The position numbers and the translations under genes were made by a program. Below are positions 6,744-26,623 of a stretch of DNA of 64,000 bases, in pieces. Below the pieces are notes generated by a model. That model was given only the letters and a program-made list of their open reading frames with translations. It ran no database searches and was not told the origin of the DNA. Source of the DNA: Vibrio harveyi NBRC 15634 = ATCC 14126 = KCTC 12724 (lineage in GTDB: Bacteria; Pseudomonadota; Gammaproteobacteria; Enterobacterales; Vibrionaceae); NCBI RefSeq assembly GCF_001591145.1, contig NZ_BCUF01000005.1:62001-126000 (forward strand). The letters are read 5' to 3'. The first letter of the stretch is position 1; every line of letters starts with the position of its first letter.

Positions 6744-9575
6744 TTAACGAGAACCTGCTGGCATCTCGTCTTCATGCAAGAACTCACCGATGCCTTGTGC
6801 TGGTGGAAGATCTTGCTCTAGAGAGCCCCAACGTTGATTTGGTTTGTCGCCCATCACGAACTCCAAGTCACCGCCGTACATGATTTCGTCATGAGTCAGG
6901 TAAGTACGGTTGAAGTCTTTGCCGTTGTAGCGAGCCGATTGAATGAAGATGTTTTCGCGGCTAACGTTCTTCGCGGTCACCGTGAACTTCTGGTTGTTGC
7001 CGACATCGATAGACGCGCTTTCAAACAGCGGAGTACCGATTTCGTAGATGCCAGAAGAAGCGTTCACTGGGTAGAAGCCAAGCGCACGGAACACGAACCA
7101 CGCAGAGAGCGTACCGAAGTCATCGTTACCACAAATGCCGTCAGCGGTGTTCTTGTAGCAAATGTTGGTTGCTGCGGCGATGGCTGCCTGACCTTTCCAA
7201 GGTTGACCTACGTAGTTGTACAAGTACGGTACGTGGATATCTGGTTCGTTACCTTGAACGTGCTGACCAACGTTACCTGTGTTGAACACTGGGAATTGGT
7301 TGTCGCCAGCGTTGCGGTCTGGGTAGGTTGACCAGTACTCATCCAAGCGTGCTGCGAATAAGTCACCGCGTTCTGCTTCAGGGTTTTGTGTCTTGTCGAA
7401 GCGTGTCATCAGGTCAATCAAGCCATGAATGTCGTGCTGAACACTGAACGAGTATTGCCAGCCGTTCGACTCAGAGAATGCCCAGTTGAACATGTCTGGA
7501 CGCCAGTCTTTACCAACCGCGCGACCGGTGATTGGGTCTACCCAACCTGCATCGATAAACTCGCCATCGTAGTCACGGGCTTTGAACCAACCTTGGTATT
7601 GCTTACCACCGAAGTCGAATTGCGCTTGCCAGTTTTTAGAACGGTTAGCGAACTCGGTGTAGCGTGGGTCCTCTTCACCAAATACTTCTTTGATCGATTG
7701 CGCGATTGCCCAGTCGTTCATTGAGTATTCAAGCGAGTAAGATGCTGTCCAAGAGTCTTTAAATGGTGAGTGACCGCCGTAAGAATCTGGTGGAGTGTCG
7801 TGCAATTGCGCTGGCACGTAACCTTGTTCTTCGTACTCTTTGATCCATGCTACGCCTTGGCTCGTTGCGGCGCGCGCGTCAGTGATCATTGCTTCAACTA
7901 AGCGTTCTTTGACGTCTTTGCGCTCTGCTTCTGTGAAGCCAAGATCGATCATGCGTTTTTCTAGTGAGCCTTTCGACAACACATCATGAATCACAGGCGT
8001 TGAGTGCATGCCCATCATCATGCCGGTTTCGTTGCCTTTGAATGTCCACTCAGGCAGACGACCTTTGCGCACGTTGCCTTTGTCATCTACCCATTCTTCT
8101 TCGGCGTAAGACAGCATAGACAGCACCACGTCAGTTAGGCGATCTGGTTCAAGAATCGAAGACAGCGGTTGAACTGCGCGGTAGGTATCCCACAAAGAGA
8201 AAGTGTCGTAGCGCGTGAAGTCTGCTTTGCCATCTTTGTTGGCATCGGCAGTGCGGATTGACTCTTTCAGCGTATCGATCTTGTCGCCCCAAGGTGTGTT
8301 GCCATCTGGGTATGCATTGCGACCTTGGTGAACTTGGCGGTAGCGACCATCTAAGTCAGAGTGAATGGTTTGACCTAGGTACGAGTGGTACATCGCGGTG
8401 TAGAATGTCTGTTTGTAATCCTCGTCGCCAGAGACTTGGATCTTGCCGAGTTCGTCTTCCCATTTCTTCGTTGCCGCTTCGCGTACTTGATCGAAGTTCA
8501 TGCCCGCAACTTCTGTCATGTTAAGAGAAGCACCAGACTTGCCGTTCTCGCCGATCTCAACGTTTGATAGTGCCAATTTCGCTTCAACCGTTAAGCCGTC
8601 TTTGGATGTGTCGAATTCAACGTAAGCGCGCGCGTATTGGTACTTGCCGCGTGTCTCGTTACCGATTTCAGTGATGCCTTCTGGCACGTCCATGTAACGA
8701 CCTTGCTCTTTATCGTAGTAAGCAAAGCGAACGTTTTTGATTGGTTGGTCGAATTCCATCACGAAGAATTCTTTTTGGCTTGGTGCCCAACCATCAGAGA
8801 AACGGTGACCTTCAAGACGGTTATTGTCTTTGTCCCATTTCAAGTAAGAATCTGAGGTGTAGTCCCAGTTAATTTTGAAGCCAGTGTTCACGATGATTTC
8901 TGACTTCTCATCACGAGGGAAGGTGTAGCGGTGTACACCAACGCGATCAGACGCCGTCAATTCAGCTTTGATGTCGTAATCCAATAGATCGACTTTGTAG
9001 TAACCTGCTGTCGCTTGCTCGTCACGATGTTGGAAGCGAGACGCTTCTAGGTTTAGCGTTGCCGAACCTTCATCAATCATGTAATCCGAACGTGAGTTGA
9101 TTGGCATGACGAGAATGTCGTTCAAGTCGCCAGCACCTGCTCCGGAAAGGTGGGTATGAGAGAAACCGGAAGTACGTGCGTCGTGGTAGTAGTAGCCTGA
9201 AATGTATTCCCAGCCGTTAGAACCGTTGTTTGGAGAAAGCTGCACCATGCCGTGTGGTGTGGTTGCACCAGGGTAGGTGTTGCCTAGGTTACCTGTGCCG
9301 ATGAATGGGTTGACGTAGCGTGTTACGTCCATATCGGCGAAATCTACCGGGATGTGAACACCCATGTCGATTTCAGGTGTTTCTGGGTTTGGCTTGTCAT
9401 CACAGTCGCCATCGCCAACTGGAGGACATACTGGCTTGCCACCGTCAGGAATATCCGGCAGTGCAGGGTTGGTGTCACCGCCTTCATAAATGTTGGTTGT
9501 GTCGTCGTTACAGCCAGTCAGACCGACTAGACCACTGAGAACTGCGCAAGCGAGTAGGGAAGGTTTGAATTTCAT
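6744..9575 (-). CDS. GH92 alpha-mannosidase lipoprotein (paralogue 4)
   Basis: At 943 aa this is the longest member of the array. It starts MKFKPSLLACAVLSGLVGLTGC, a signal peptide with lipobox. A low-complexity linker rich in Asp, Pro and Gly follows (about residues 24-70), typical of a tether holding the catalytic domain away from the membrane. Signatures are GNLGNTYPGATTPHGMVQLSP, GFSHTHLSGAGAGDLND, GNEPDIHVPYLYN and GNDDFGTLSAWFVF, all GH92. It is the first GH92 gene after the PTS genes on this strand, 121 bp past the EIIC-B stop. Co-transcription with the PTS is plausible but a hairpin intervenes. Confidence 0.92.
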   Translation of the reverse strand: MKFKPSLLACAVLSGLVGLTGCNDDTTNIYEGGDTNPALPDIPDGGKPVCPPVGDGDCDDKPNPETPEIDMGVHIPVDFADMDVTRYVNPFIGTGNLGNTYPGATTPHGMVQLSPNNGSNGWEYISGYYYHDARTSGFSHTHLSGAGAGDLNDILVMPINSRSDYMIDEGSATLNLEASRFQHRDEQATAGYYKVDLLDYDIKAELTASDRVGVHRYTFPRDEKSEIIVNTGFKINWDYTSDSYLKWDKDNNRLEGHRFSDGWAPSQKEFFVMEFDQPIKNVRFAYYDKEQGRYMDVPEGITEIGNETRGKYQYARAYVEFDTSKDGLTVEAKLALSNVEIGENGKSGASLNMTEVAGMNFDQVREAATKKWEDELGKIQVSGDEDYKQTFYTAMYHSYLGQTIHSDLDGRYRQVHQGRNAYPDGNTPWGDKIDTLKESIRTADANKDGKADFTRYDTFSLWDTYRAVQPLSSILEPDRLTDVVLSMLSYAEEEWVDDKGNVRKGRLPEWTFKGNETGMMMGMHSTPVIHDVLSKGSLEKRMIDLGFTEAERKDVKERLVEAMITDARAATSQGVAWIKEYEEQGYVPAQLHDTPPDSYGGHSPFKDSWTASYSLEYSMNDWAIAQSIKEVFGEEDPRYTEFANRSKNWQAQFDFGGKQYQGWFKARDYDGEFIDAGWVDPITGRAVGKDWRPDMFNWAFSESNGWQYSFSVQHDIHGLIDLMTRFDKTQNPEAERGDLFAARLDEYWSTYPDRNAGDNQFPVFNTGNVGQHVQGNEPDIHVPYLYNYVGQPWKGQAAIAAATNICYKNTADGICGNDDFGTLSAWFVFRALGFYPVNASSGIYEIGTPLFESASIDVGNNQKFTVTAKNVSRENIFIQSARYNGKDFNRTYLTHDEIMYGGDLEFVMGDKPNQRWGSLEQDLPPAQGIGEFLHEDEMPAGSR

Positions 9576-9696: not shown

Positions 9697-11097
9697 TTAA
9701 GCTTTCACAAGAGTCGCTGCGTTACGCATCGCTTCTTTCGTTGAACACTCAACAACGTTTGCTTTTGCAAAGCGGTGAGCATCTTTTACTTGGATATCGT
9801 GAGCTAGAATAACCAGCTTCGCGTTTGCTACATCTAGGTCAGTGATGCGGTTCTGGATACCGTTTTGACCTTGAGTTTCTACTTTGATTTTCAGACCTGC
9901 TGCTGCACCTGCTTTCTCTAGTGCTTTCGCTGCCATGAATGTGTGTGCTACGCCAGATGGGCAACATGTTACTGCTACGATGTCGTACTCGCCTTCGCCT
10001 GCTGCTGGAGCCGCTTGAGCTTGTGCAGGTGCTGCTTCAACGATTTCGTCTTCTGCTTCTTCTTCAGCAACTGGTTTCCAGAAGCCAACGATAACTGCTG
10101 TTGTTAGAGAGCCAAGTGCGATACCCACAACGTACATTGGGATGTTGCTTGATACAGGTGCTGTGATTAGACCGCCCCATGGTGCGTGTAGCAGTACGTC
10201 TGTTAGGAAGCCGAACACACAGCCAACGATACCACCAGCAACGATTGAAGGAAGAACGCGTACAGGGTCGTTTGCTGCGAATGGGATAGCACCTTCAGAG
10301 ATACCGATAGAGCCCATGATTGCTGCTGCTTTACCTGCTTCTTGTTCTTGCTTAGTGAACTTCTTCTTGAATAGGAATGTTGCTAGTGCCATACCTAGAG
10401 GAGGTGTACAGATTGCGATACCAACACCACCCATTAGCCATGGTTGAGTATCAACTTGAGTTTGAGCGAATAGCGTTGCTACTTTGTTGATTGGACCGCC
10501 CATATCGAATGCAGTCATACCACCAAGAATCGTACCTAGAACCACTTTAGAAGCGCCAGCCATAGAAGCTAGGAATTCGTTCATAGACGCCATGAAGATC
10601 TTGATTGGCTCACCGATACCCCATAGAACGATACCTGCAGAGATAAGCGTACCTAGTAGAGGGTAGATGAAGTAAGCGCCCAACGCAGTCATGTTAGCAG
10701 AAAGAGGAATCTTCTTAAGTTGGAATACCACACCACCTGCGATGAAGCCCGCTACGATACAACCAAGGAAGCCGCCGCCCATATCAGCCATGATGCCAGA
10801 AGAGATCATCGCTGGCGCTAGAGCTGGTTTGTCTGCAATTGAGTAACCAATGAAGCCACCAAGAATAATTGGGAACAGCACCAGACCTTTAATACCGATA
10901 TTAGAAATATCAGCCAATAAACCGTCTGCTGGAACCGCACCTTTACCTGATGCCATTACCGCTAGCGCTAGTAGTACACCACCCGCAACGATAAATGGAA
11001 GCATGTGAGAAGTACCGAATAAAAGGTGACCTTTCATGGTACTTAGGATTTTTTTGAAATCGCTATTATTACTAGCTTGAGCTGTGATTGTACTCAT
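9697..11097 (-). CDS. PTS fructose-family EIIC-EIIB fusion
   Basis: The 466-aa protein has an N-terminal membrane EIIC domain (about residues 1-350, many hydrophobic segments), an Ala/Glu-rich linker and a C-terminal EIIB domain (about 370-466). The EIIB phosphocysteine lies in VTCCPSGVAHTFMAA. The C-B order differs from E. coli FruA, which has the B domains first. The protein transports and phosphorylates a sugar using phosphate from the adjacent EIIA. An AAGGCG ribosome site precedes the ATG. Because four GH92 mannosidases follow on the same strand, mannose or a mannoside is the favoured substrate; this is inference, since the fructose family covers several hexoses. Confidence 0.9.
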   Translation of the reverse strand: MSTITAQASNNSDFKKILSTMKGHLLFGTSHMLPFIVAGGVLLALAVMASGKGAVPADGLLADISNIGIKGLVLFPIILGGFIGYSIADKPALAPAMISSGIMADMGGGFLGCIVAGFIAGGVVFQLKKIPLSANMTALGAYFIYPLLGTLISAGIVLWGIGEPIKIFMASMNEFLASMAGASKVVLGTILGGMTAFDMGGPINKVATLFAQTQVDTQPWLMGGVGIAICTPPLGMALATFLFKKKFTKQEQEAGKAAAIMGSIGISEGAIPFAANDPVRVLPSIVAGGIVGCVFGFLTDVLLHAPWGGLITAPVSSNIPMYVVGIALGSLTTAVIVGFWKPVAEEEAEDEIVEAAPAQAQAAPAAGEGEYDIVAVTCCPSGVAHTFMAAKALEKAGAAAGLKIKVETQGQNGIQNRITDLDVANAKLVILAHDIQVKDAHRFAKANVVECSTKEAMRNAATLVKA

Positions 11098-11108
11098 AAT
11101 TTCACGCC

Positions 11109-11561
11109 TTATGAATTAATTAAAATATTTAGTATTTGGTTTTCGTCTTTTGCGTTATGAATATCTTCAATAAACTCTTCGCTAAATTTACCGAATAATT
11201 CTTGAAGAACATAAATATGGTGGTCGGCACCGTTATCTGGTGAGGCAATCATGAAGAATACGGTCGGTTTGACTCCCTCTTCGTCGCCATACTCGATGCC
11301 TTCGCGCTTTACGCCAACAGCGATTGCAGGCTCTGTAACCGCTTTGCTTTTTGCGTGTGGGTAAGCGATGCCGTCCATTGAAGTAACGCTTAATGCTTCA
11401 CGTGCTTCGATGTCGGTTAAAAAAGCCTCTTTGCTGTTGATTCGATTATTTTCGAATAGCATCTGTGCTAGCTCTTCAAAGACTTCTTTTTTATTATTTG
11501 CTTGAAGGTTGCCTTTAATTAAATTGACGTTTGTTAGTTCTGTAATCATTTTTTGACTCAT
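11109..11561 (-). CDS. PTS fructose-family EIIA component
   Basis: The 150-aa protein is one EIIA domain of the fructose/mannitol type. The phosphorylated histidine is in GIAYPHAKS (about residue 68). It carries phosphate from HPr to the EIIB domain of the next gene, which begins 11 bp downstream. The first ATG is used here. An ATG four codons later (11549) is also possible because neither has a strong ribosome site. The upstream region contains a CRP-like sequence. Confidence 0.9.
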   Translation of the reverse strand: MSQKMITELTNVNLIKGNLQANNKKEVFEELAQMLFENNRINSKEAFLTDIEAREALSVTSMDGIAYPHAKSKAVTEPAIAVGVKREGIEYGDEEGVKPTVFFMIASPDNGADHHIYVLQELFGKFSEEFIEDIHNAKDENQILNILINS

Positions 11562-11840: not shown

Positions 11841-12617
11841 CTATACCGTAATTACTTGAACGCCAGCTTCTTCTAGTGCTTTAAGTGTTGTTTCATCGGC
11901 ACCTTGATCCGTAATTAGGGTATCAAGTTGAGAGGCAGAAGCCAGAAGCTTTCCGCCGTGTTTGCCTATCTTGCTACTATCGACTAATGCTACTAGACGA
12001 TCACCGTATTCCAATAGTTTCTTCTCAGCCATGTAAACCAAGAGATCAGAAGTGTACACGCCAGCTTTCGAAACACCGGTACCTGTGAAGAAAACGTAAC
12101 GACTTGAATAGTCGTCAGTATTTTCAGCATCTGGTGAGATGGTAATATGACGCTCTGGTAGATACTGCCCACCTAGAATGATCAAACTAGAATGTTTCTT
12201 CTGAATGAGTTGGTAAGCAAGTGGCATAAAGTTGGTCACTACTTGAATGTTGCTGCCAGCTAAATAGTCACCCAACAATAACGTTGTGTTACTGCCACTT
12301 ACCACCACACTATCACCTTCATCACACATTTCAGCGGCGGCTTGGGCAATCCGAGATTTAGCTGCAAAATTCTCAATGTCTTTTTCTGAAGGAATGAAAT
12401 GAGAAGCAACATGAGATTGTGTGGCTACTTGTTCTGATTTAATCACTTCCGCACCATTGCGGATCTTCGTGAGTTTCCCGTCTTCTGCGAGTTTTGTTAT
12501 GTCGCGTCGGGCTGTTGATAGAGAAATATCAAGCATCTCAACGTAGTCGCTCGTGCTGACATACGTGTGATTTTCTAGATACTCCAAAAGCCTTCTATGA
12601 CGCTGAGCTTCATTCAT
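11841..12617 (-). CDS. DeoR/GlpR-family sugar-phosphate-responsive repressor
   Basis: The protein has 258 aa from 12617 (MNEAQRHRRLLEYLENH), where AAGGA lies 7 bases before the ATG. A frame start at 12647 is not supported. The N-terminal DeoR helix-turn-helix (about residues 1-55, with the STARRDITKLAEDGKL recognition region) is followed by the DeoRC sensor domain. DeoRC senses phosphorylated sugars and typically releases DNA when bound. The gene diverges from the ten-gene operon at 12830-24615. The shared region carries an array of TGAC half-sites, so autoregulation and control of the divergent operon are likely. It may also control the PTS/GH92 genes. Confidence 0.9.
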   Translation of the reverse strand: MNEAQRHRRLLEYLENHTYVSTSDYVEMLDISLSTARRDITKLAEDGKLTKIRNGAEVIKSEQVATQSHVASHFIPSEKDIENFAAKSRIAQAAAEMCDEGDSVVVSGSNTTLLLGDYLAGSNIQVVTNFMPLAYQLIQKKHSSLIILGGQYLPERHITISPDAENTDDYSSRYVFFTGTGVSKAGVYTSDLLVYMAEKKLLEYGDRLVALVDSSKIGKHGGKLLASASQLDTLITDQGADETTLKALEEAGVQVITV

Positions 12618-12640
12618 AGTTAAGTCCTTGATTTTTGTTT

Positions 12641-12817
12641 TGACCAATTTTGACCGAATTTGACGTTTTGAGCAAATAAAAAATCAAAATGACGTTTTTT
12701 GAATTGTTTGTGACCGTTTTTTGTGATCTTTAGCCTGTTTTGAATCGTTTTAAGTCAAAAATGACTTTACGTGACGTCATTTGACCGTTTATAGTCATTT
12801 TGCGTCACAAAGAGTCA
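12641..12817. promoter_or_regulatory. Phased TGAC/GTCA operator array between deoR-type gene and catabolic operon
   Basis: Thirteen TGAC or GTCA tetramers lie in 177 bp. TGAC occurs at 12641, 12651, 12661, 12690, 12711, 12762, 12772 and 12782. GTCA occurs at 12754, 12776, 12794, 12804 and 12814. Three triplets have exact 10-bp spacing. The last two triplets are mirror images about 12789.5, giving three nested dyads. A TATAGT hexamer (12790-12795), a possible -10 box, sits at the dyad centre. This is most simply the cooperative operator of the DeoR-family repressor. Confidence 0.7.
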
Positions 12818-12829
12818 TTGGAGACCAAA

Positions 12830-13675
12830 ATGAAGTATCAAGCAATCATTATCGATTTAGATGGCACACTGTTAAATGACCATAATCAAATCAGTAGTAA
12901 CAATATCGAAGCGATCAAACTTGCGATTAGTGAAGGTTATAAAGTCACATTAGTAAGTGGTCGTCCACATAACCTGATGCTTCCTTTTGCCAAGCAGCTT
13001 GGCATTGAACTGCCGATGATTTGCTGTAATGGCGCCTACCAGTTTGACCATGTTCAAGGCAGCATTAACGATAGCCAAGTCATTGGTTCAAATGCACTCA
13101 ATGCATTACTCGACACTCTCAATATTGGTCAGTTTTACTTCACGCTTTACTGCGAAAACGGCATTTTTGCGACTCAACAATCTGAACACTTCTTAGGTCT
13201 TCAGCAACAGATGTTGGCACTGGGCGTTGAGGACAACATGAAAATTGTGCCGAGTGTTCGTTCACTACTTAATGAATGTGGTGATGTATATAAAGTCTTG
13301 GTCTCTAGCGAAGACAAAGTCGCTCTCTGTGAATTACGTGATGCGCTGATTCATCATCATGTACAAGCCGATCTTTCAACGCCGAACAAGCTTGATATCA
13401 CAGCGAAGGGAGCGAACAAAGGCACCGCAACTCTTCACCTACTTAATCAACTCAACCTGAATCCGAAATACACCATTGCTTTTGGTGACGGAGACAACGA
13501 TGCAGAAATGTTACGCGTTGTTGGGGAACCCGTAGCAATGGAAAACGCTAGTCCAGCCATTCGTGGGTTAGCGAACTTAATTGTCACAGATAACAACGGT
13601 TGCGGCATTGGGCAGTACCTCAGATTGATCGTGTCTGAAGGTCAGCATTCATGCCAACACTCTTACTTCTATTAA
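12830..13675 (+). CDS. Cof-type HAD-superfamily sugar phosphatase
   Basis: The protein has 281 aa from the ATG at 12830, which is preceded by GGAG. The longer frame from 12800 lies inside the operator array and lacks support. It has the HAD motif I DLDGTLLND near the N-terminus and motif IV GDGDNDAEML near residue 220. The size and the C2B cap fit the Cof/YidA group, which dephosphorylates sugar phosphates. It is the first gene of the operon. A role in relieving toxic accumulation of imported sugar phosphate, or in a pathway step, is inferred from context. Confidence 0.85.
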   Translation: MKYQAIIIDLDGTLLNDHNQISSNNIEAIKLAISEGYKVTLVSGRPHNLMLPFAKQLGIELPMICCNGAYQFDHVQGSINDSQVIGSNALNALLDTLNIGQFYFTLYCENGIFATQQSEHFLGLQQQMLALGVEDNMKIVPSVRSLLNECGDVYKVLVSSEDKVALCELRDALIHHHVQADLSTPNKLDITAKGANKGTATLHLLNQLNLNPKYTIAFGDGDNDAEMLRVVGEPVAMENASPAIRGLANLIVTDNNGCGIGQYLRLIVSEGQHSCQHSYFY

Positions 13676-13684
13676 GGAAACACA

Positions 13685-14395
13685 ATGAAAAAAGTAAAAA
13701 TCGCAGCAGGTCTTGCACACGTAGATTACGGCCACATCGCAGATATCGTAAAAGAAGTGTCTGACGCGGGTGCGGATTACATTCACTGTGATGCTGCTGA
13801 TATGCATGATTTGAAAAACATGCAGCTTATGGGTGGTCATCAAATCGTTGAAGGTATTCGTCAGTACACGGATAAGCCAATCGAAGTCCACGCTTACTTT
13901 AAAGATTGTGATCGTCTATTTGTAGAAAAGATTGCTAAAGCTGGCGCAGACATGCTGATTCTTCCAGCAGAGAACTTCTTGGGTGCGCCATTGGCGTACA
14001 TGATGAAGTACTGCCGTGACTACAACATGAAGTTTGGTCTAACCGTTGGCTGTTTTACTCCTGTCTCTTTCGTTAAAGAAGCAATTTACTACCTAGACCG
14101 ACTTCACATTGTTATTCATGGCGTGAACAACGATGAATGGTTATGGCGTGAGTCTGCGATTGAAATGATTCGCGAAGCGCGTCAGCTAATTAACGAGCGT
14201 AACCCTAACTGTGAATTGTGTGTTGACGGTGGTATCCGTAACCACAACCTAGAGCCGCTGTTGAAAGAAGACATTGATGTGATGGTGGCATCAACCAACA
14301 TCTTCGGTCACAAAGAAGGCATTACAGCTGGCGTAAAAGATTTCCGTGCTGCACTGAATGCTGCTGAAGAAGCCGTTGCCGCTGAACTAGCTTAA
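13685..14395 (+). CDS. Ribulose-phosphate 3-epimerase-like TIM-barrel protein (SgcE-like)
   Basis: The 236-aa protein starts 10 bp after the HAD gene with AAGGAA before its ATG. It follows the RPE barrel pattern: an N-terminal Ala/Asp strand, DAGADYIHCDAADMHD (metal-binding Asp region), IEVHAYFKDCDRL, then CVDGGIRNHNL near the C-terminus. Sequence style is closer to SgcE and other PTS-linked epimerases than to housekeeping Rpe. The canonical HxMV segment is replaced by EVHAYF. Epimerization of a ketopentose or ketohexose phosphate at C3 is expected. The substrate is not known. Confidence 0.8.
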   Translation: MKKVKIAAGLAHVDYGHIADIVKEVSDAGADYIHCDAADMHDLKNMQLMGGHQIVEGIRQYTDKPIEVHAYFKDCDRLFVEKIAKAGADMLILPAENFLGAPLAYMMKYCRDYNMKFGLTVGCFTPVSFVKEAIYYLDRLHIVIHGVNNDEWLWRESAIEMIREARQLINERNPNCELCVDGGIRNHNLEPLLKEDIDVMVASTNIFGHKEGITAGVKDFRAALNAAEEAVAAELA

Positions 14396-14466
14396 TTAGA
14401 GTTAATGGTGTCGGGCTGAACTTCCCCCTCGAAATGCTCCGGCTCGACACCAACCAAGGAATTGCC

Positions 14467-15624
14467 ATGACACATTTTAATCACTACCAACCGACTAAGC
14501 TGAGCTTTGGCCCGGGCAATGTGAGCCAAATTGGTCATATGATTGCCAAATACGGTCGACGCTGTTTGATTGTCTCTGAACCGATATTTGAAGCAGTTAA
14601 ACCAGCTTATGAGCGTATTTTTGCTTTGCTTGCCGAACAAGATATTCATGTAACGCACTTCGATGGCGTTGTACCTAATCCGCCAACGACGGTTGTTGAG
14701 CTTGGACGACAAGTTGGTATCGAAGCTGACTGTAACGTTGTACTTGCCATTGGCGGTGGTTCATCGATCGATACCGCGAAGATCATCGCAGCAACCATGA
14801 AGGTTGACACAATTGATTGGGCACACTGGTTTAATAATTATGATTCGCCTTTTGGTGATATTAAGGCGCTGCCAGCATCAACTGTGCCTTTGATTGCAAT
14901 ACCAACAACATCTGGAACGGGCTCTCAGGTTACTCATGCAGCGGTTATTACTGATCTTGATAGCCACTCAAAACTGACATTGTTCCATCCTGATTTTTAT
15001 CCATGTGAAGCCATTATTGATCCTGAATTAATGCTGACCTTACCACCTCGTATGACAGCGATGACTGGTTTTGATGCGTTTTCACATGCGTTTGAGTCGT
15101 ACACCGGCACAAAGCCTTCACCATTAGTTGATAGTTTGGCGCTAGAAGCCATGAAGCTGGTGGTAGAAAACTTGCCTGCTGTTGTGAAGAACGGCTCCGA
15201 TATCGAAGGTCGTTGTCGATTGGCAAGCGCTGATACGTTGGCTGGGATCTCCTTGGCTAATGGTGGCGCAGGCGCACCGCATCCTCTAGGGGAAATCTTA
15301 GGTAGTAGAAAAACGAATTTACCTCATGGTTTGACACTAGCGGTGGTTTATCCCGCTTATGTTCAACTGCAATGGCGTAAACAACCAGAACGTTACGCAA
15401 AAGTTGCTGAGCTATTTGGTGCCGTGGGAAGCACTGAAGAAAAAGCGCAATCGCTAGCAACGCACTTAGTCACGTTTTTAGGGCAAATTGGTTTAGAGCA
15501 CAACCTAACGCAGGTAGGAGTCACAGAGGAAGACGTAAAGGCATTAGAACCAGCGTTTTGCTTCAACCTACCTTTGACAACAGGCGAAGAGATGAAAACG
15601 ATTCTGCACGCCAGCTTGGTATAG
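14467..15624 (+). CDS. Iron-containing alcohol dehydrogenase family oxidoreductase
   Basis: The protein has 385 aa from the ATG at 14467, with AAGGAA upstream. It has the nucleotide-binding motif GGGSSIDTAK (about residues 95-105). The metal-ligand segments are GFDAFSHAFES, GAPHPLGE and LPHGL, the pattern of Fe/Zn group III dehydrogenases. These enzymes interconvert alcohols, polyols or phosphonates with aldehydes or ketones using NAD(P)H. Between an epimerase and pentose-phosphate enzymes, a sugar-alcohol phosphate or short aldehyde is the likely substrate (inference). Confidence 0.88.
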   Translation: MTHFNHYQPTKLSFGPGNVSQIGHMIAKYGRRCLIVSEPIFEAVKPAYERIFALLAEQDIHVTHFDGVVPNPPTTVVELGRQVGIEADCNVVLAIGGGSSIDTAKIIAATMKVDTIDWAHWFNNYDSPFGDIKALPASTVPLIAIPTTSGTGSQVTHAAVITDLDSHSKLTLFHPDFYPCEAIIDPELMLTLPPRMTAMTGFDAFSHAFESYTGTKPSPLVDSLALEAMKLVVENLPAVVKNGSDIEGRCRLASADTLAGISLANGGAGAPHPLGEILGSRKTNLPHGLTLAVVYPAYVQLQWRKQPERYAKVAELFGAVGSTEEKAQSLATHLVTFLGQIGLEHNLTQVGVTEEDVKALEPAFCFNLPLTTGEEMKTILHASLV

Positions 15625-15647
15625 CAGAACAAAAAGGGGTTGAGAAC

Positions 15648-16382
15648 ATGGGAAACGAAGTAAAAACAATGAAATTTGCAGCGTTGAATGTGGATAGAGA
15701 GGACATCAAACGTCGTGATATTCAAGCGTTAATCTTCGATTTCGATGGTCTACTCGTCGATACAGAAACCTGTTTGTTTAGGGCCTGGGAAGCTCTAATG
15801 AAGCCATTCGGGATTGATGTTTCGCCACTCCAGGTTGCTGGTCTAGTTGGGAGCTCAGTACCAGCAACCTCTCTTTGTGACCTTTATCGATATCATTCAA
15901 AGCAAGTGTTATCTGATGATGAAATCAGACAACAAGTCTTTAGTCATGCTTATCGACTGATTGCACTTCAAACAGAACGAAAAGGTGTTCGCTGCTATCT
16001 AGACACAGCAAAGCAAATGGAGCTTAAGATGGCGTTAGCAACAAGTTCTGAATACGAGCATTACATGCCGATTCTGAAGCGCCTGAATTTAGAACATTAC
16101 TTTGACTGTTTCACCGGAGCAGAAGAAATCTCGATTGAACGTCGTAAGCCATCTCCGGACGTTTATCTCACTAGCCTAGAAAAACTCGGAGTTTCTGCCA
16201 GTCAAGCCATTGCCTTTGAGGACTCTCCTCCAGGAGTTACAGCGGCTCGAGCGGCAGGTATTTCAACAGTTGCGGTAACCAATTACCTGACTCAGCACTT
16301 AGATGTCTCGCATGCAGACATTGTTTTATCGTCAATGAGTCAAATTTCGCTAGCGCAATTGATTATCAACTTATCGAGATAG
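15648..16382 (+). CDS. HAD-IA hydrolase, beta-phosphoglucomutase-like
   Basis: The protein has 244 aa from the ATG at 15648, with AGGGG eight bases upstream. An extended frame from 15558 would overlap the dehydrogenase. Motif I is [11 protein letters not shown], motif [11 protein letters not shown], motif [17 protein letters not shown], all typical of the phosphoglucomutase/phosphatase clade. A 25-residue N-terminal extension precedes motif I. It may be a sugar phosphatase or mutase acting on an intermediate. It is the second HAD protein in the operon, from a different subfamily than the first. Confidence 0.85.
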
Positions 16383-16386
16383 AGTT

Positions 16387-17340
16387 ATGAACAAATTAGA
16401 ACAATTGAAAAAATACACAACGGTTGTTGCTGATACTGGTGACATTGATGCGATTGCTGCATTCCAGCCTCAAGATGCGACGACAAACCCTTCATTAGTG
16501 CTTAAAGCGGCAGAGATGCCTCAATACGATCACTTGATTGTAGATGCGATTGAATGGGCGAAAAAACAAAGCGCAGATAGAGCACAGCAGATCATCGATG
16601 CAAGCGATAAATTGGCGGTCAACATCGGCGTGGAAATCTTAAAAACCGTACCAGGGCGTATCTCTACTGAAGTTGATGCTCGCTTATCATTTGATAAAGA
16701 ATCCAGTTTGGTGAAAGCGCGAAAATTGATCGCCATGTACCAAGAAGCTGGCATTGAGAAAGCGCGCATTTTGATCAAGCTGGCGTCAACATGGGAAGGC
16801 ATTCGTGCAGCAGAAGTACTCGAAAAAGAAGGCATTAACTGTAACCTAACGCTGCTGTTTAACTTTGCTCAGGCAAAAGCGTGTGCAGAAGCGGGGGCAT
16901 TCCTTATCTCTCCATTTGTTGGTCGTATCTTAGATTGGTACAAAAACAATACTGATCAAAAAGAATACCTTCCACATGAAGACCCGGGAGTTGTCTCGGT
17001 TTCTAAGATTTACAACTACTACAAAGATCATGGCTACAACACTGTGGTTATGGGTGCTAGCTTCCGTAATGCTGACGAAGTGCTCGCTCTAGCTGGCTGT
17101 GATCGTCTAACGATTGGTCCTGCAATCTTAGATCAACTTGCAGCGCAAGAGGGTGAGGTTGAACCAAAGCTTTATGCTCAACGCACGAATGTGAACCCTG
17201 CGCCAACGGCAATGACTGAAGCTGAGTTCCGTTGGGAAATGAACCAAGATCCAATGGCGACAGAGAAGTTGTCTGAGGGTATTCGTAACTTTGCCGTAGA
17301 CCAAGGCAAACTAGAAGCAATGATTGAAGCACGTCTGTAA
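16387..17340 (+). CDS. tal: Transaldolase
   Basis: The 317-aa protein is TalB-type. The N-terminal [10 protein letters not shown] motif and the Schiff-base lysine in [12 protein letters not shown] (about residue 132) are intact, as are NLTLLF and the [10 protein letters not shown] phosphate-binding segment. It transfers dihydroxyacetone between sedoheptulose-7-P and glyceraldehyde-3-P. It lies 5 bp after the HAD gene and before transketolase. A dedicated copy inside a sugar operon, in addition to the usual housekeeping gene expected elsewhere in the genome, suggests flux through the pentose phosphate pathway. Confidence 0.95.
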
Positions 17341-17352
17341 GGAGCAGTGAAG

Positions 17353-19350
17353 ATGATCTCTCGAAATAAACTTGCAGACACGATTCGTGTATTGAGTATG
17401 GATGCGGTGCAAAAAGCTGGCTCTGGTCACCCTGGTGCACCGATGGGCATGGCGGATATTGCGGAAGTTCTGTGGCGTGATTTTCTAAAACATAATCCCA
17501 CCAACCCTAATTGGCCGGATCGTGACCGTTTCATTCTTTCTAACGGTCATGGCTCTATGCTGATTTACAGCTTATTGCATTTGTCTGGCTATGATTTGAC
17601 GATGGCAGATATTCAATCTTTCCGTCAGTTGCATGCTAAGACTGCGGGACATCCAGAATATGGTTATGCACCGGGGATTGAAACAACGACTGGTCCGCTA
17701 GGTCAAGGCATTACCAATGGTGTTGGTATGGCACTCGCTGAGAAGGTATTAGCTGATCAGTTTAACCGTCCAGGTCATGATATCGTTGACCACCACACTT
17801 ATGTGTTTATGGGTGATGGCTGCATGATGGAAGGCATTTCCCACGAAGCTTGTTCGTTAGCTGGCACATTAGGTTTAGGCAAGCTGATTGCGTTTTGGGA
17901 TGACAATGGCATCTCAATTGATGGCGAGGTTGAGGGATGGTTTTCGGATGATACGCCTAAACGTTTTGAAGCATATGGTTGGCACGTCATTGCGGATGTT
18001 GATGGTCATAACGCTCAATCAATTCGCCAAGCGATTCTAGAGGCTCAGGCAGAAACCAGTAAGCCAACGTTAATTTGCTGTAAAACTATTATTGGCTTTG
18101 GATCGCCAAACAAATCAGCAAGCCACGATTGTCATGGAGCACCGTTAGGTGAAGAAGAGGTAGCGCTAGTACGTCAAAACCTAGGTTGGGAATACGCCCC
18201 GTTTGAAATCCCGCATGAAATCTATCAAGCGTGGGATGCCAAAGTTGCAGGTAAAGATGCGGAAGCACAATGGGCGAATCGCTTTGTGGAATATGAATCG
18301 GCATACCCAGATCTGGCAGCAGAGTTTAATCGTCGAGTAAAGGGCGACCTACCAGAAAACTGGACTCAAATCAGTGAAGATGTGATTAAAACTTTGCAAG
18401 CCAACCCTGCGACTATCGCGACTCGCAAAGCATCGCAAAACGCGATTGAGGCCTTTGGCGCGCACTTACCTGAATTCCTAGGTGGCTCGGCAGATCTAAC
18501 TCCATCAAACCTAACGAATTGGTCTGGTTCAAAAGCGATTACCGCTCAGGATGCTTCAGGTAATTACCTTAGTTACGGAGTTCGTGAGTTTGCCATGTCA
18601 GCCATGATGAATGGCATTGCTCTCCACGGCGGTTTTATTCCTTATGGCGGCACATTCTTAATGTTTATGGAATACGCACGTAATGCATTGCGTATGGCCG
18701 CATTGATGAAGCAACGCAGCATCTTTGTCTACACGCATGATTCAATTGGTTTGGGTGAAGATGGTCCAACGCATCAACCTGTGGAACAAATCGCATCACT
18801 GCGTTTAACGCCAAACATGAGCACATGGCGTCCTTGTGACCAAGTCGAGACCGCAGTCGCTTGGAAAGCCGCTGTCGAGAGAACGGATGGTCCAACTTCA
18901 CTGATTTTCTCGCGCCAGAATCTTGTTCAATTTGAGCGTGATGAGGAGACATTAGAAAACATCGCGAAAGGTGGTTACATCTTGTCCGACTGTGACGGTG
19001 AACCTGAGCTTATTCTCATTGCCACGGGTTCTGAAGTTGCTCTTGCTATGGAAGCAAAGGCGCAGTTGAACAATGTTCGCTGTCGTGTGGTTTCGATGCC
19101 TGCAACCGACGTGTTTGACGCGCAGAGTGCACAATACCAACAACACGTTCTCCCAACCAATGTGACCAAGCGTATCGCGATTGAAGCTGGTATTCGAGAT
19201 TATTGGTTTAAGTACGCTGGCTTACAAGGAGAGATCATCGGTATGACGAGCTTTGGTGAGTCTGCACCAGCTGATCAGCTCTTTGAAATGTACGGCTTTA
19301 CTGTGGCAAACGTTGTTGATACTGCCAAGCGTATGATGGAGAACGCGTAA
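17353..19350 (+). CDS. tkt: Transketolase
   Basis: The protein has 665 aa. The ATG at 17353 is preferred because TAAGGAG lies eight bases upstream; a GTG at 17347 is too close. The thiamine diphosphate motif begins [13 protein letters not shown] and ends in the conserved Asn of DDNGISIDG. The [13 protein letters not shown] and [17 protein letters not shown] signatures are canonical. It transfers two-carbon ketol units between sugar phosphates. The transaldolase stop overlaps its ribosome site, indicating tight coupling. Confidence 0.96.
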
Positions 19351-20045
19351 TGGAAACTTTCATCACAAATACGGTGGATGAATGTGTAAGAGTCAAGGCT
19401 GCGAAAGCAGCCTTGGACCACATTCTACAAAATGTCACTCCAGATACGGTTATTGGAATTGGTACAGGTGCAACAGCAGAAGTATTTGTCCAATTATTGG
19501 CAGCTAGTGGCGTGGCGTTTGCTCACTGTGTATCAAGTTCAGAACGCTCTTCTAAAGCCATCCAGAGTTCAGGTTTGAAAGAAATCCCTCTCGCAGACTG
19601 CTTGTACGTGGATTATTACGTTGATGGCATTGATGAAGGGTTAACAAACGGCATCACAATCAAAGGTGGAGGCGCGGCTTTAGGGCGTGAAAAAGTCATT
19701 GCCTCTATGACTAAGTGCTTTATCACCATCTCAGATGAAGGACGTTTAGTGGAGACGCTGGGGAAATTCCCTCTGCCAATTGAAGTCCTCCCAGCGGCGA
19801 AAATGCCAGTTATTCTCGCCTTAAAATCCCTTGGTGGTCGTCCTTTGCAACGCCCTGATTGCGTTACTGATAATGGCAATATCATTTTGGATGTTTCTGG
19901 TCTAGATATGAGTGAGCCAACCGAATTAGAACAGCGACTGAACTCCCTTTCAGGTGTGGTTGAGAATGGCATATTTTCTCAATGCCGTGCGCACTATATG
20001 GCGTTTTCAAATACACAAGGCGTTCGTTGGTTATCGGTAAATTGA
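19350..20045 (+). CDS. rpiA: Ribose-5-phosphate isomerase A
   Basis: The 231-aa protein overlaps the transketolase stop by one base (TAATG), indicating translational coupling. It has the phosphate loop GIGTGATAEVF, SSERSSKAIQ, the active-site DGIDEG and KGGGAALGREK. It interconverts ribose-5-P and ribulose-5-P. With tal, tkt and an epimerase-like gene it completes a private non-oxidative pentose phosphate set. Confidence 0.95.
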   Translation: METFITNTVDECVRVKAAKAALDHILQNVTPDTVIGIGTGATAEVFVQLLAASGVAFAHCVSSSERSSKAIQSSGLKEIPLADCLYVDYYVDGIDEGLTNGITIKGGGAALGREKVIASMTKCFITISDEGRLVETLGKFPLPIEVLPAAKMPVILALKSLGGRPLQRPDCVTDNGNIILDVSGLDMSEPTELEQRLNSLSGVVENGIFSQCRAHYMAFSNTQGVRWLSVN

Positions 20046-25882: not shown

Positions 25883-26623
25883 GTGAACTCAAGACAAAAT
25901 GAAATCCTGCAATTGGTTAATGACCGCAAACGCGTTCAAGTGACGGAGCTTTCTGACATCATTGGCGTGTCGGGCGTGACCATCAGGCAGGATTTGAACT
26001 TCCTTGAGCAACAAGGCTACTTAAAGCGCGTACACGGCGCTGCGACGGCGCTACAAAGTGACGATATTGATACGCGACTCGAAGTGCGTTTCGACATCAA
26101 ACAAGCGTTAGCCAACAAAGCGGCAGATTTGGTATCACCAAACGAAACCGTGTTAATCGAAGGCGGCAGTGCTAATGCGCTTTTAGCTCGCACATTGGCT
26201 GAACGTGGTGACGTCACCATCATTACCCCATCGGCGTACATCGCCCACCTCATCCGAAACACTTCAGCCAACATCATCTTGCTTGGTGGTGTGTATCAGC
26301 ATCAAGGCGAGAGCTTGGTTGGACCGCTGACTAAGCTGTGTATTGAGAACATTCACTTCAGCACGGCTTTTTTAGGTATTGACGGTTTCCATCAAGACAC
26401 AGGCTTTACTAGCCGAGACATGATGCGTGCAGAAATCGCTGAAACCATCATTGCGAAAAAGCGCCGTAATATCGTGCTGACGGACTCAAGCAAGTTTGGG
26501 CAAATCTACCCATCTTCGATTGGTAAAACGAGTGAAATCTCTGTGTTGTTAACCGACAAAGCCGCTCCGAAAAGCGACCTCGAACAGTTGAGAAAGCAAG
26601 GCGTGGAAGTGGTGTTGGGTTAA
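25883..26623 (+). CDS. DeoR/GlpR-family transcriptional regulator
   Basis: The 246-aa protein starts at a GTG with AAGGAG eight bases upstream. The DeoR helix-turn-helix (VQVTELSDIIGVSGVTIRQDLNFLEQQGYLKRVHGAA) is followed by a sensor domain with VLIEGGSANALLARTL, AFLGIDGF and VLTDSSKFG. Its targets are unclear. It converges on malI, and the two stop codons overlap within TTAA (26620-26623). It is separate from the DeoR regulator at 11841. Confidence 0.88.
   Translation: MNSRQNEILQLVNDRKRVQVTELSDIIGVSGVTIRQDLNFLEQQGYLKRVHGAATALQSDDIDTRLEVRFDIKQALANKAADLVSPNETVLIEGGSANALLARTLAERGDVTIITPSAYIAHLIRNTSANIILLGGVYQHQGESLVGPLTKLCIENIHFSTAFLGIDGFHQDTGFTSRDMMRAEIAETIIAKKRRNIVLTDSSKFGQIYPSSIGKTSEISVLLTDKAAPKSDLEQLRKQGVEVVLG

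Follow-up and report, generated by a model that had tools for sequence, protein, structure and literature searches.

A phased TGAC array as a likely shared operator of a UlaR-subfamily repressor in Vibrio harveyi

The locus and its genes

The window considered here, a 64-kb stretch of the Vibrio harveyi genome, encodes a DeoR-family repressor and, in divergent orientation, a series of sugar-phosphate genes (Table 1). The start codons of deoR and of the first divergent gene (HAD) are separated by 212 bp. The ORF tool proposed a longer reading of deoR from a TTG start at 12647, which would extend it into arm A of the half-site array described below. Fructose-type PTS genes were found downstream of deoR on the same strand.

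Table 1. Coordinates of the repressor gene, the half-site array and its surroundings. Conservation refers to the number of orthologous loci, out of 21, that kept the TGA or TCA core (arms, one value per half-site) or the bases indicated.
Feature	Position	Strand	Description	Conservation
DeoR-family repressor gene	11841..12617	-	258 aa; ATG at 12617	
Arm A	12641..12664	+	TGAC 12641, 12651, 12661; upstream of the deoR ATG	16, 21, 21
Arm B	12690..12714	+	TGAC 12690, TGAA 12700, TGAC 12711	19, 20, 8 (last: 18 with a one-base shift allowed)
CRP-like site	12722..12737	+	strong left half TGTGA, weak right half; between B and C	TGTGA, 20
Arm C'	12744..12757	-	GTCA 12754; position 12744 is ATCG here	15, 17
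Arm C	12762..12785	+	TGAC 12762, 12772, 12782	20, 21, 16
Promoter-like pair of the divergent operon	12766..12795	+	-35 TTTACG 12766-12771, 18-bp spacer, -10 TATAGT 12790-12795	TTTAC, 20; TAT, 21
Arm D	12794..12817	-	GTCA 12794, 12804, 12814; mirror of arm C about 12789.5	15, 19, 20
All plus-strand TGAC		+	12641, 12651, 12661, 12690, 12711, 12762, 12772, 12782	
All minus-strand TGAC (GTCA)		-	12754, 12776, 12794, 12804, 12814	
Divergent genes	12830..20045	+	Cof-type HAD, ribulose-phosphate-epimerase-like, Fe-alcohol dehydrogenase, HAD, transaldolase, transketolase, RpiA	

The gene order from HAD to transketolase beside the deoR orthologue was kept in all nine named relatives. The closest of those found was Vibrio jasicida (repressor identity given as 100 %), and it was the only one of the nine in whose fetched DNA the PTS genes, as well as the large protein encoded at 6744-9575, adjoined the repressor. 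In the other eight, the fetched sequence lacked the fructose-type PTS genes (9697-11561); locus L042 comprised less than 0.5 kb on the PTS side and is uninformative for their presence. Judging from these gene contents, the transporter seems to vary while regulator and enzymes stay. A second operator in front of the PTS IIA gene was considered and rejected, as the segment 11562-11840 displayed no same-strand TGA/TCA pair 10 or 11 bp apart among the listed positions.

The window harbors a second DeoR-family regulator (25883-26623), whose upstream 300 bp were devoid of a 10-bp array. Upstream regions were surveyed for five out of seven DeoR-family genes of the genome (those of L108 and L109 being left out), and 10-bp arrays were encountered in front of only two, both of the UlaR type.

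The repressor and its relatives

Both Pfam models HTH_DeoR (N-terminal) and DeoRC (C-terminal) matched the repressor above their cut-offs, which assigns it to the DeoR family. Within this family it belongs to the UlaR subfamily, with 327.2 bits against NCBIfam UlaR (PRK13509; cut-off 244) and 96 bits for the next family; identity to E. coli UlaR was 43 %. Its gene neighbourhood is not that of the ascorbate regulator, which adjoins ulaG and ulaABCDEF: the adjacent genes encode fructose-type PTS, HAD, epimerase, Fe-alcohol dehydrogenase, transaldolase, transketolase and RpiA proteins, and the ulaG match of this genome adjoins a repressor paralogue of 42 % identity on contig C7.

A search with the repressor protein returned matches in 87 out of 296 Vibrionaceae genomes. 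These were split between an orthologous group of 21 loci (L005-L025, 65-100 % identity, including the window and hereafter called the window group) and a group mostly near 42 %, which includes genuine UlaR.

The AlphaFold2 model of the repressor displayed a mean pLDDT of 81.5, with segments 61-72 and 150-170 below 50. Its best PDB fold match was E. coli DeoR (7l6l, chains of ~180 residues), followed by CggR and RpiA folds, while a PDB sequence search gave no match at E 0.001. In this model the recognition helix covers residues 33-45, residues 33 and 34 lying at its start. These are Leu-Ser in all 21 window-group proteins, versus Pro-Ala in E. coli UlaR and in the nine paralogues that were read.

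Anatomy of the control region

An earlier note on this DNA had announced 13 TGAC/GTCA tetramers between 12641 and 12817, and every one was located; the whole 212-bp gap contained the same 13 words. Dinucleotide shuffles of the gap gave a mean of 2.27 words, and none out of 20,000 reached 13. Same-strand pairs exactly 10 bp apart numbered six, against a shuffle mean of 0.013, and again none of the 20,000 shuffles attained this value. Elsewhere in the window (12400-13000 excluded), the next densest stretch of 177 bp held seven words.

The half-sites are arranged in five arms. A, B and C are forward triplets, D is a reverse triplet, and C', also reverse, comprises one half-site here versus two in many relatives. 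Arm A corresponds to the further TGAC triplet that the note had placed before the DeoR gene. In arm B, the degenerate TGAA at 12700 restores the 10-bp step, and the third half-site (12711) sits one base earlier in several relatives. The exact dyad described between the TGAC words of C and the GTCA words of D was recovered as well, all three mirror pairs sharing a single centre. With up to three mismatches allowed, this six-half-site palindrome occurred only once in the 5.58-Mb genome. GTCA at 12776 is probably incidental, because among the 21 orthologous loci it was confined to the row of the window.

The claim that all half-sites lie on one face of the DNA was not supported as such. With 10.5 bp per turn, it holds only within arms and across C and D, whose phases agree to within ~0.14 turn. 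Arm A is out of phase with them by about half a turn, the distance from A to C being a non-integer ~11.5 turns, so that a single flat face cannot join all arms.

The -35-like TTTACG occupies the gap that separates the first half-site of C from the second, and the -10-like TATAGT is placed at the C/D centre; the pair is a consensus match only, and shuffles of the region yielded a mean of 1.4 such sites. Since C and D thereby bracket a conserved promoter-like element, the arrangement fits direct repression. An origin of the TGAC words themselves from sigma-70 -35 boxes was also considered and was rejected, two of the five arms being inverted and the words being phased.

The CRP-like site matched six of the ten scored bases of the CRP consensus in the window, and nine out of ten in L022 and L025. 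With a transcription start near 12802, its centre would fall near -72. The tetramer GCAA (12672-12675), which closely follows arm A and is no half-site, was invariant in all 21 loci and may belong to the deoR promoter.

Conservation among orthologous loci

Apart from L006 (99 %), the aligned regions of the other 20 loci were 58-83 % identical to the window. TGA cores occupied 10 to 14 of the 14 half-site positions in 19 out of 21 loci, the lowest counts being seven (L021) and eight (L022). Only one of the three cores of arm D was left in L021, L022 and L025, and the full palindrome is therefore not universal. Mean identity was 0.85 in half-site columns versus 0.72 elsewhere (one-sided rank test, p = 5e-5), in a comparison whose columns are not independent and whose half-sites 12700 and 12744 were picked after viewing the alignment. 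It was restricted to 15 non-redundant loci by exclusion of six near-duplicates, while the core counts of Table 1 use all 21 loci, which are related sequences.

The distance from A to B measured 49 bp in all 21 loci, A to C 121 bp in 20 (110 bp in L023, that is 11 bp or about one helix turn less) and C to D 32 bp in 20 (33 bp in L025). The leader between the deoR start and A was variable (23-30 bp). A pattern search through 227 genomes of the genus, with 29 gap values allowed, retrieved 20 genomes. Nineteen of these matches were the known orthologous loci, 18 with unchanged spacing and one 11 bp shorter; the last one (G295), whose genome was not listed among those with a repressor match, was taken as chance. 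A loss of the spacing in relatives keeping the operon, which would have spoken against the earlier note, was not encountered, spacing being nearly invariant in the 21 loci; and the alignment that it had proposed displayed phased half-sites at all of them, with D mostly lost in three.

This alignment also bears on readings in which the words have no regulatory role of their own. A recent, functionless local duplication would generate a tandem repeat with regular spacing, as is seen here. Yet the half-sites are separated by spacers that are not alike, and their phased arrangement persists in loci at 58-83 % identity; this reading is contradicted by cross-species conservation and deserves virtually no credit. 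The 10-bp period could otherwise stem mainly from DNA bending by T/A tracts in phase, with TGAC as an incidental feature. The gap is indeed rich in T (40 %), runs of T precede several half-sites, and near 12651 conservation of the adjacent T columns equals that of TGA. At most half-sites, however, TGA surpasses the neighbouring T columns in conservation, two of the five arms are inverted, and dinucleotide shuffles, which retain the T richness, yield no array, which makes bending a very improbable explanation.

Comparison with ula control regions

Genuine UlaR could be recognized at L028, where the repressor gene lies between a gene matching the model of the L-ascorbate 6-phosphate lactonase UlaG and a divergent gene matching two ascorbate-PTS models, these matches being above cut-off; L030 and L033 displayed, by reading, the same frames. 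The Vibrio ulaR-ulaA control region carried four tandem TGATT at 10-11 bp in seven aligned loci (L028-L034), which is perhaps the general design of UlaR operators in Vibrio. These seven were retained out of nine fetched paralogue loci of 42-44 % identity, L026 (which has other neighbours) and L027 being dropped. In E. coli and in eight loci of one other family, TGAT/ATCA words of the ulaG-ulaA region formed conserved pairs with a 10-bp step, arranged as inverted groups. The latter nine (L035 and L046-L053) are referred to as enterobacterial, UlaG of the eight loci being 87-96 % identical to that of E. coli; L054, which has such TGAT runs, was placed in no comparison group.

Same-strand TGA/TCA pairs at a lag of 10 bp amounted to 152 in the window group (7.1 expected, with a maximum of 14 in 200 shuffles), 26 in Vibrio ula regions (3.7 expected) and 41 in enterobacterial ula regions (4.1 expected), the latter two also above the maximum of 200 shuffles. 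Upstream regions of 21 more distant ulaG genes, which may not hold the operator, showed no excess (six pairs against 5.0 expected). The groups differed in the base following TGA: with related sequences counted separately, it was C in 200 out of 265 half-sites of window-group arrays, versus T in 52 out of 67 and 61 out of 85 for Vibrio and enterobacterial ula regions, respectively. We propose that the pair Leu-Ser versus Pro-Ala at the start of the recognition helix may set this choice between TGAC and TGAT.

The array thus possesses the 10-11-bp tandem TGA half-sites and the inverted groups of a UlaR-type operator, as defined here from the ula regions and not from a published definition. Since Vibrio and enterobacterial ula regions carry 10-11-bp phased TGA half-sites, the array is, judged by its sequence, an enlarged, TGAC-reading variant of the UlaR-type operator and no new kind. 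The earlier note had held it denser than the operators of this family, which is accurate as a matter of degree and not of kind, as ula regions hold up to four tandem TGA half-sites at 10-11 bp.

The sharing of this design by UlaR relatives, with TGAT, also argues against the possibility that the half-sites bind another regulator and that the DeoR gene is merely adjacent. Other proteins may act in the region, given its CRP-like half-site. The array was nevertheless found beside a deoR orthologue in 21 out of 21 loci, and the uniqueness of the palindrome in the genome makes a regulator with many such targets unlikely. Altogether, we regard another regulator as unlikely. The exact three-TGAC pattern was also used to look for additional targets in the 5.58 Mb; it had one further match (C50), near what are presumably LysE- and AraC-like reading frames, which chance can explain and which was not retained.

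Proposed mechanism

The array is likely the shared operator of the UlaR-subfamily repressor, serving both deoR itself and the divergently oriented sugar-phosphate operon by the mechanism outlined below. The region appears to behave, as the earlier note had suggested, like the operator region of the adjacent gene, phased half-sites being present at 21 orthologous loci. Each winged-helix domain would read one TGAC, and adjacent subunits of an oligomer would occupy tandem half-sites, at a distance of one helix turn. Occupation of C and D would cover the operon promoter, with its -35 inside C and its -10 at the dyad centre, and exclude RNA polymerase, while arm A, just upstream of the deoR start, could provide autoregulation. 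The repressor would be released when a sugar phosphate binds to its RpiA-like sensor domain; an inducer of this type is suited both to the fold, which resembles DeoR and, in part, RpiA, and to the pentose-phosphate enzymes that the operon encodes. Once the repressor is released, CRP may help activation from the conserved TGTGA.

Repression by UlaR is attributed to a homotetramer that acts on four operator sequences and is released as a dimer by L-ascorbate 6-phosphate (PMC3219644), and tetramer or octamer states are described for UlaR, AgaR and DeoR (PMC10991401). Oligomeric binding is plausible here by analogy with the UlaR tetramer on its four operators (PMC3219644). One repressor assembly would moreover bridge the arms; such bridging is probable, being suggested by the rigid A-B-C spacing and by analogy with the same tetramer on its four E. 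coli operators. The same operator could also work without it, the arms being bound separately and their distances set by constraints from the promoter, CRP or the leader. The promoter-like pair falls in the strictly spaced C-D interval, and A to C is not a whole number of turns, which keeps this version a reasonable, if not the favoured, possibility. It accounts less well for the distances A to B (49 bp in 21 out of 21) and A to C, which are kept outside the operon promoter, and for the sole A-to-C exception, a single event, being shorter by 11 bp or about one turn.

A bolder extension of the bridged operator is that its five arms and ~14 half-sites nucleate an assembly beyond one tetramer over 177 bp, in a UlaR branch with a matched Leu-Ser/TGAC change. 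This we put forward tentatively and hold to be rather doubtful.

Relation to known systems

The E. coli ulaG-ulaABCDEF system resembles the present locus by its NCBIfam UlaR equivalog, its divergent control region, its TGA half-sites at 10-11 bp and its inverted groups. It differs in that the present locus displays mostly TGAC instead of TGAT, mostly triplet arms instead of pairs, and non-ula genes. The Vibrio ulaR-ulaA region, from the same genus, likewise has tandem half-sites at 10-11 bp beside a UlaR gene, but with TGAT, another arrangement and ula neighbours. FruR of Lactococcus lactis is reportedly a DeoR-family repressor requiring four adjacent 10-bp direct repeats; this is its point of resemblance to the array, whereas an inverted arm of the type described here does not belong to that account.

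For the DeoR-family regulator RhaR, two imperfect direct repeats with a 10-11-bp periodicity are reported in four taxonomic groups (PMC3870299). The periodicity is that of the array, whereas five arms are present here, and sequences and pathway are different. A tandem-repeat site was predicted for another DeoR regulator (PMC8579813). With repeats of 10-11 bp published for RhaR and a tandem site predicted for that regulator, the design as such has precedents. What sets this variant apart is its arms of three half-sites, the exactness of the palindrome that spans the promoter, TGAC as the half-site word and a tightly kept spacing. No paper on this particular operator was found in the open-licence literature, subscription literature being mostly outside the search.

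Implications

DNA reading by DeoR-family repressors seems poorly resolved, as the repressor had no PDB sequence match at the above threshold and its nearest fold was E. coli DeoR. In the array, half-sites recur once per helix turn, in direct and inverted order and at near-fixed spacing across species, and this layout lends itself readily to testing in what register subunits bind, how large the oligomer is and whether arms are bridged. Sister branches within one genus, with TGAT and TGAC arrays, constitute a natural pair for finding specificity residues. If the extended reading were true, this branch would represent a natural specificity switch, in which a change in the protein (Leu-Ser for Pro-Ala) is matched by one in the DNA (TGAC for TGAT).
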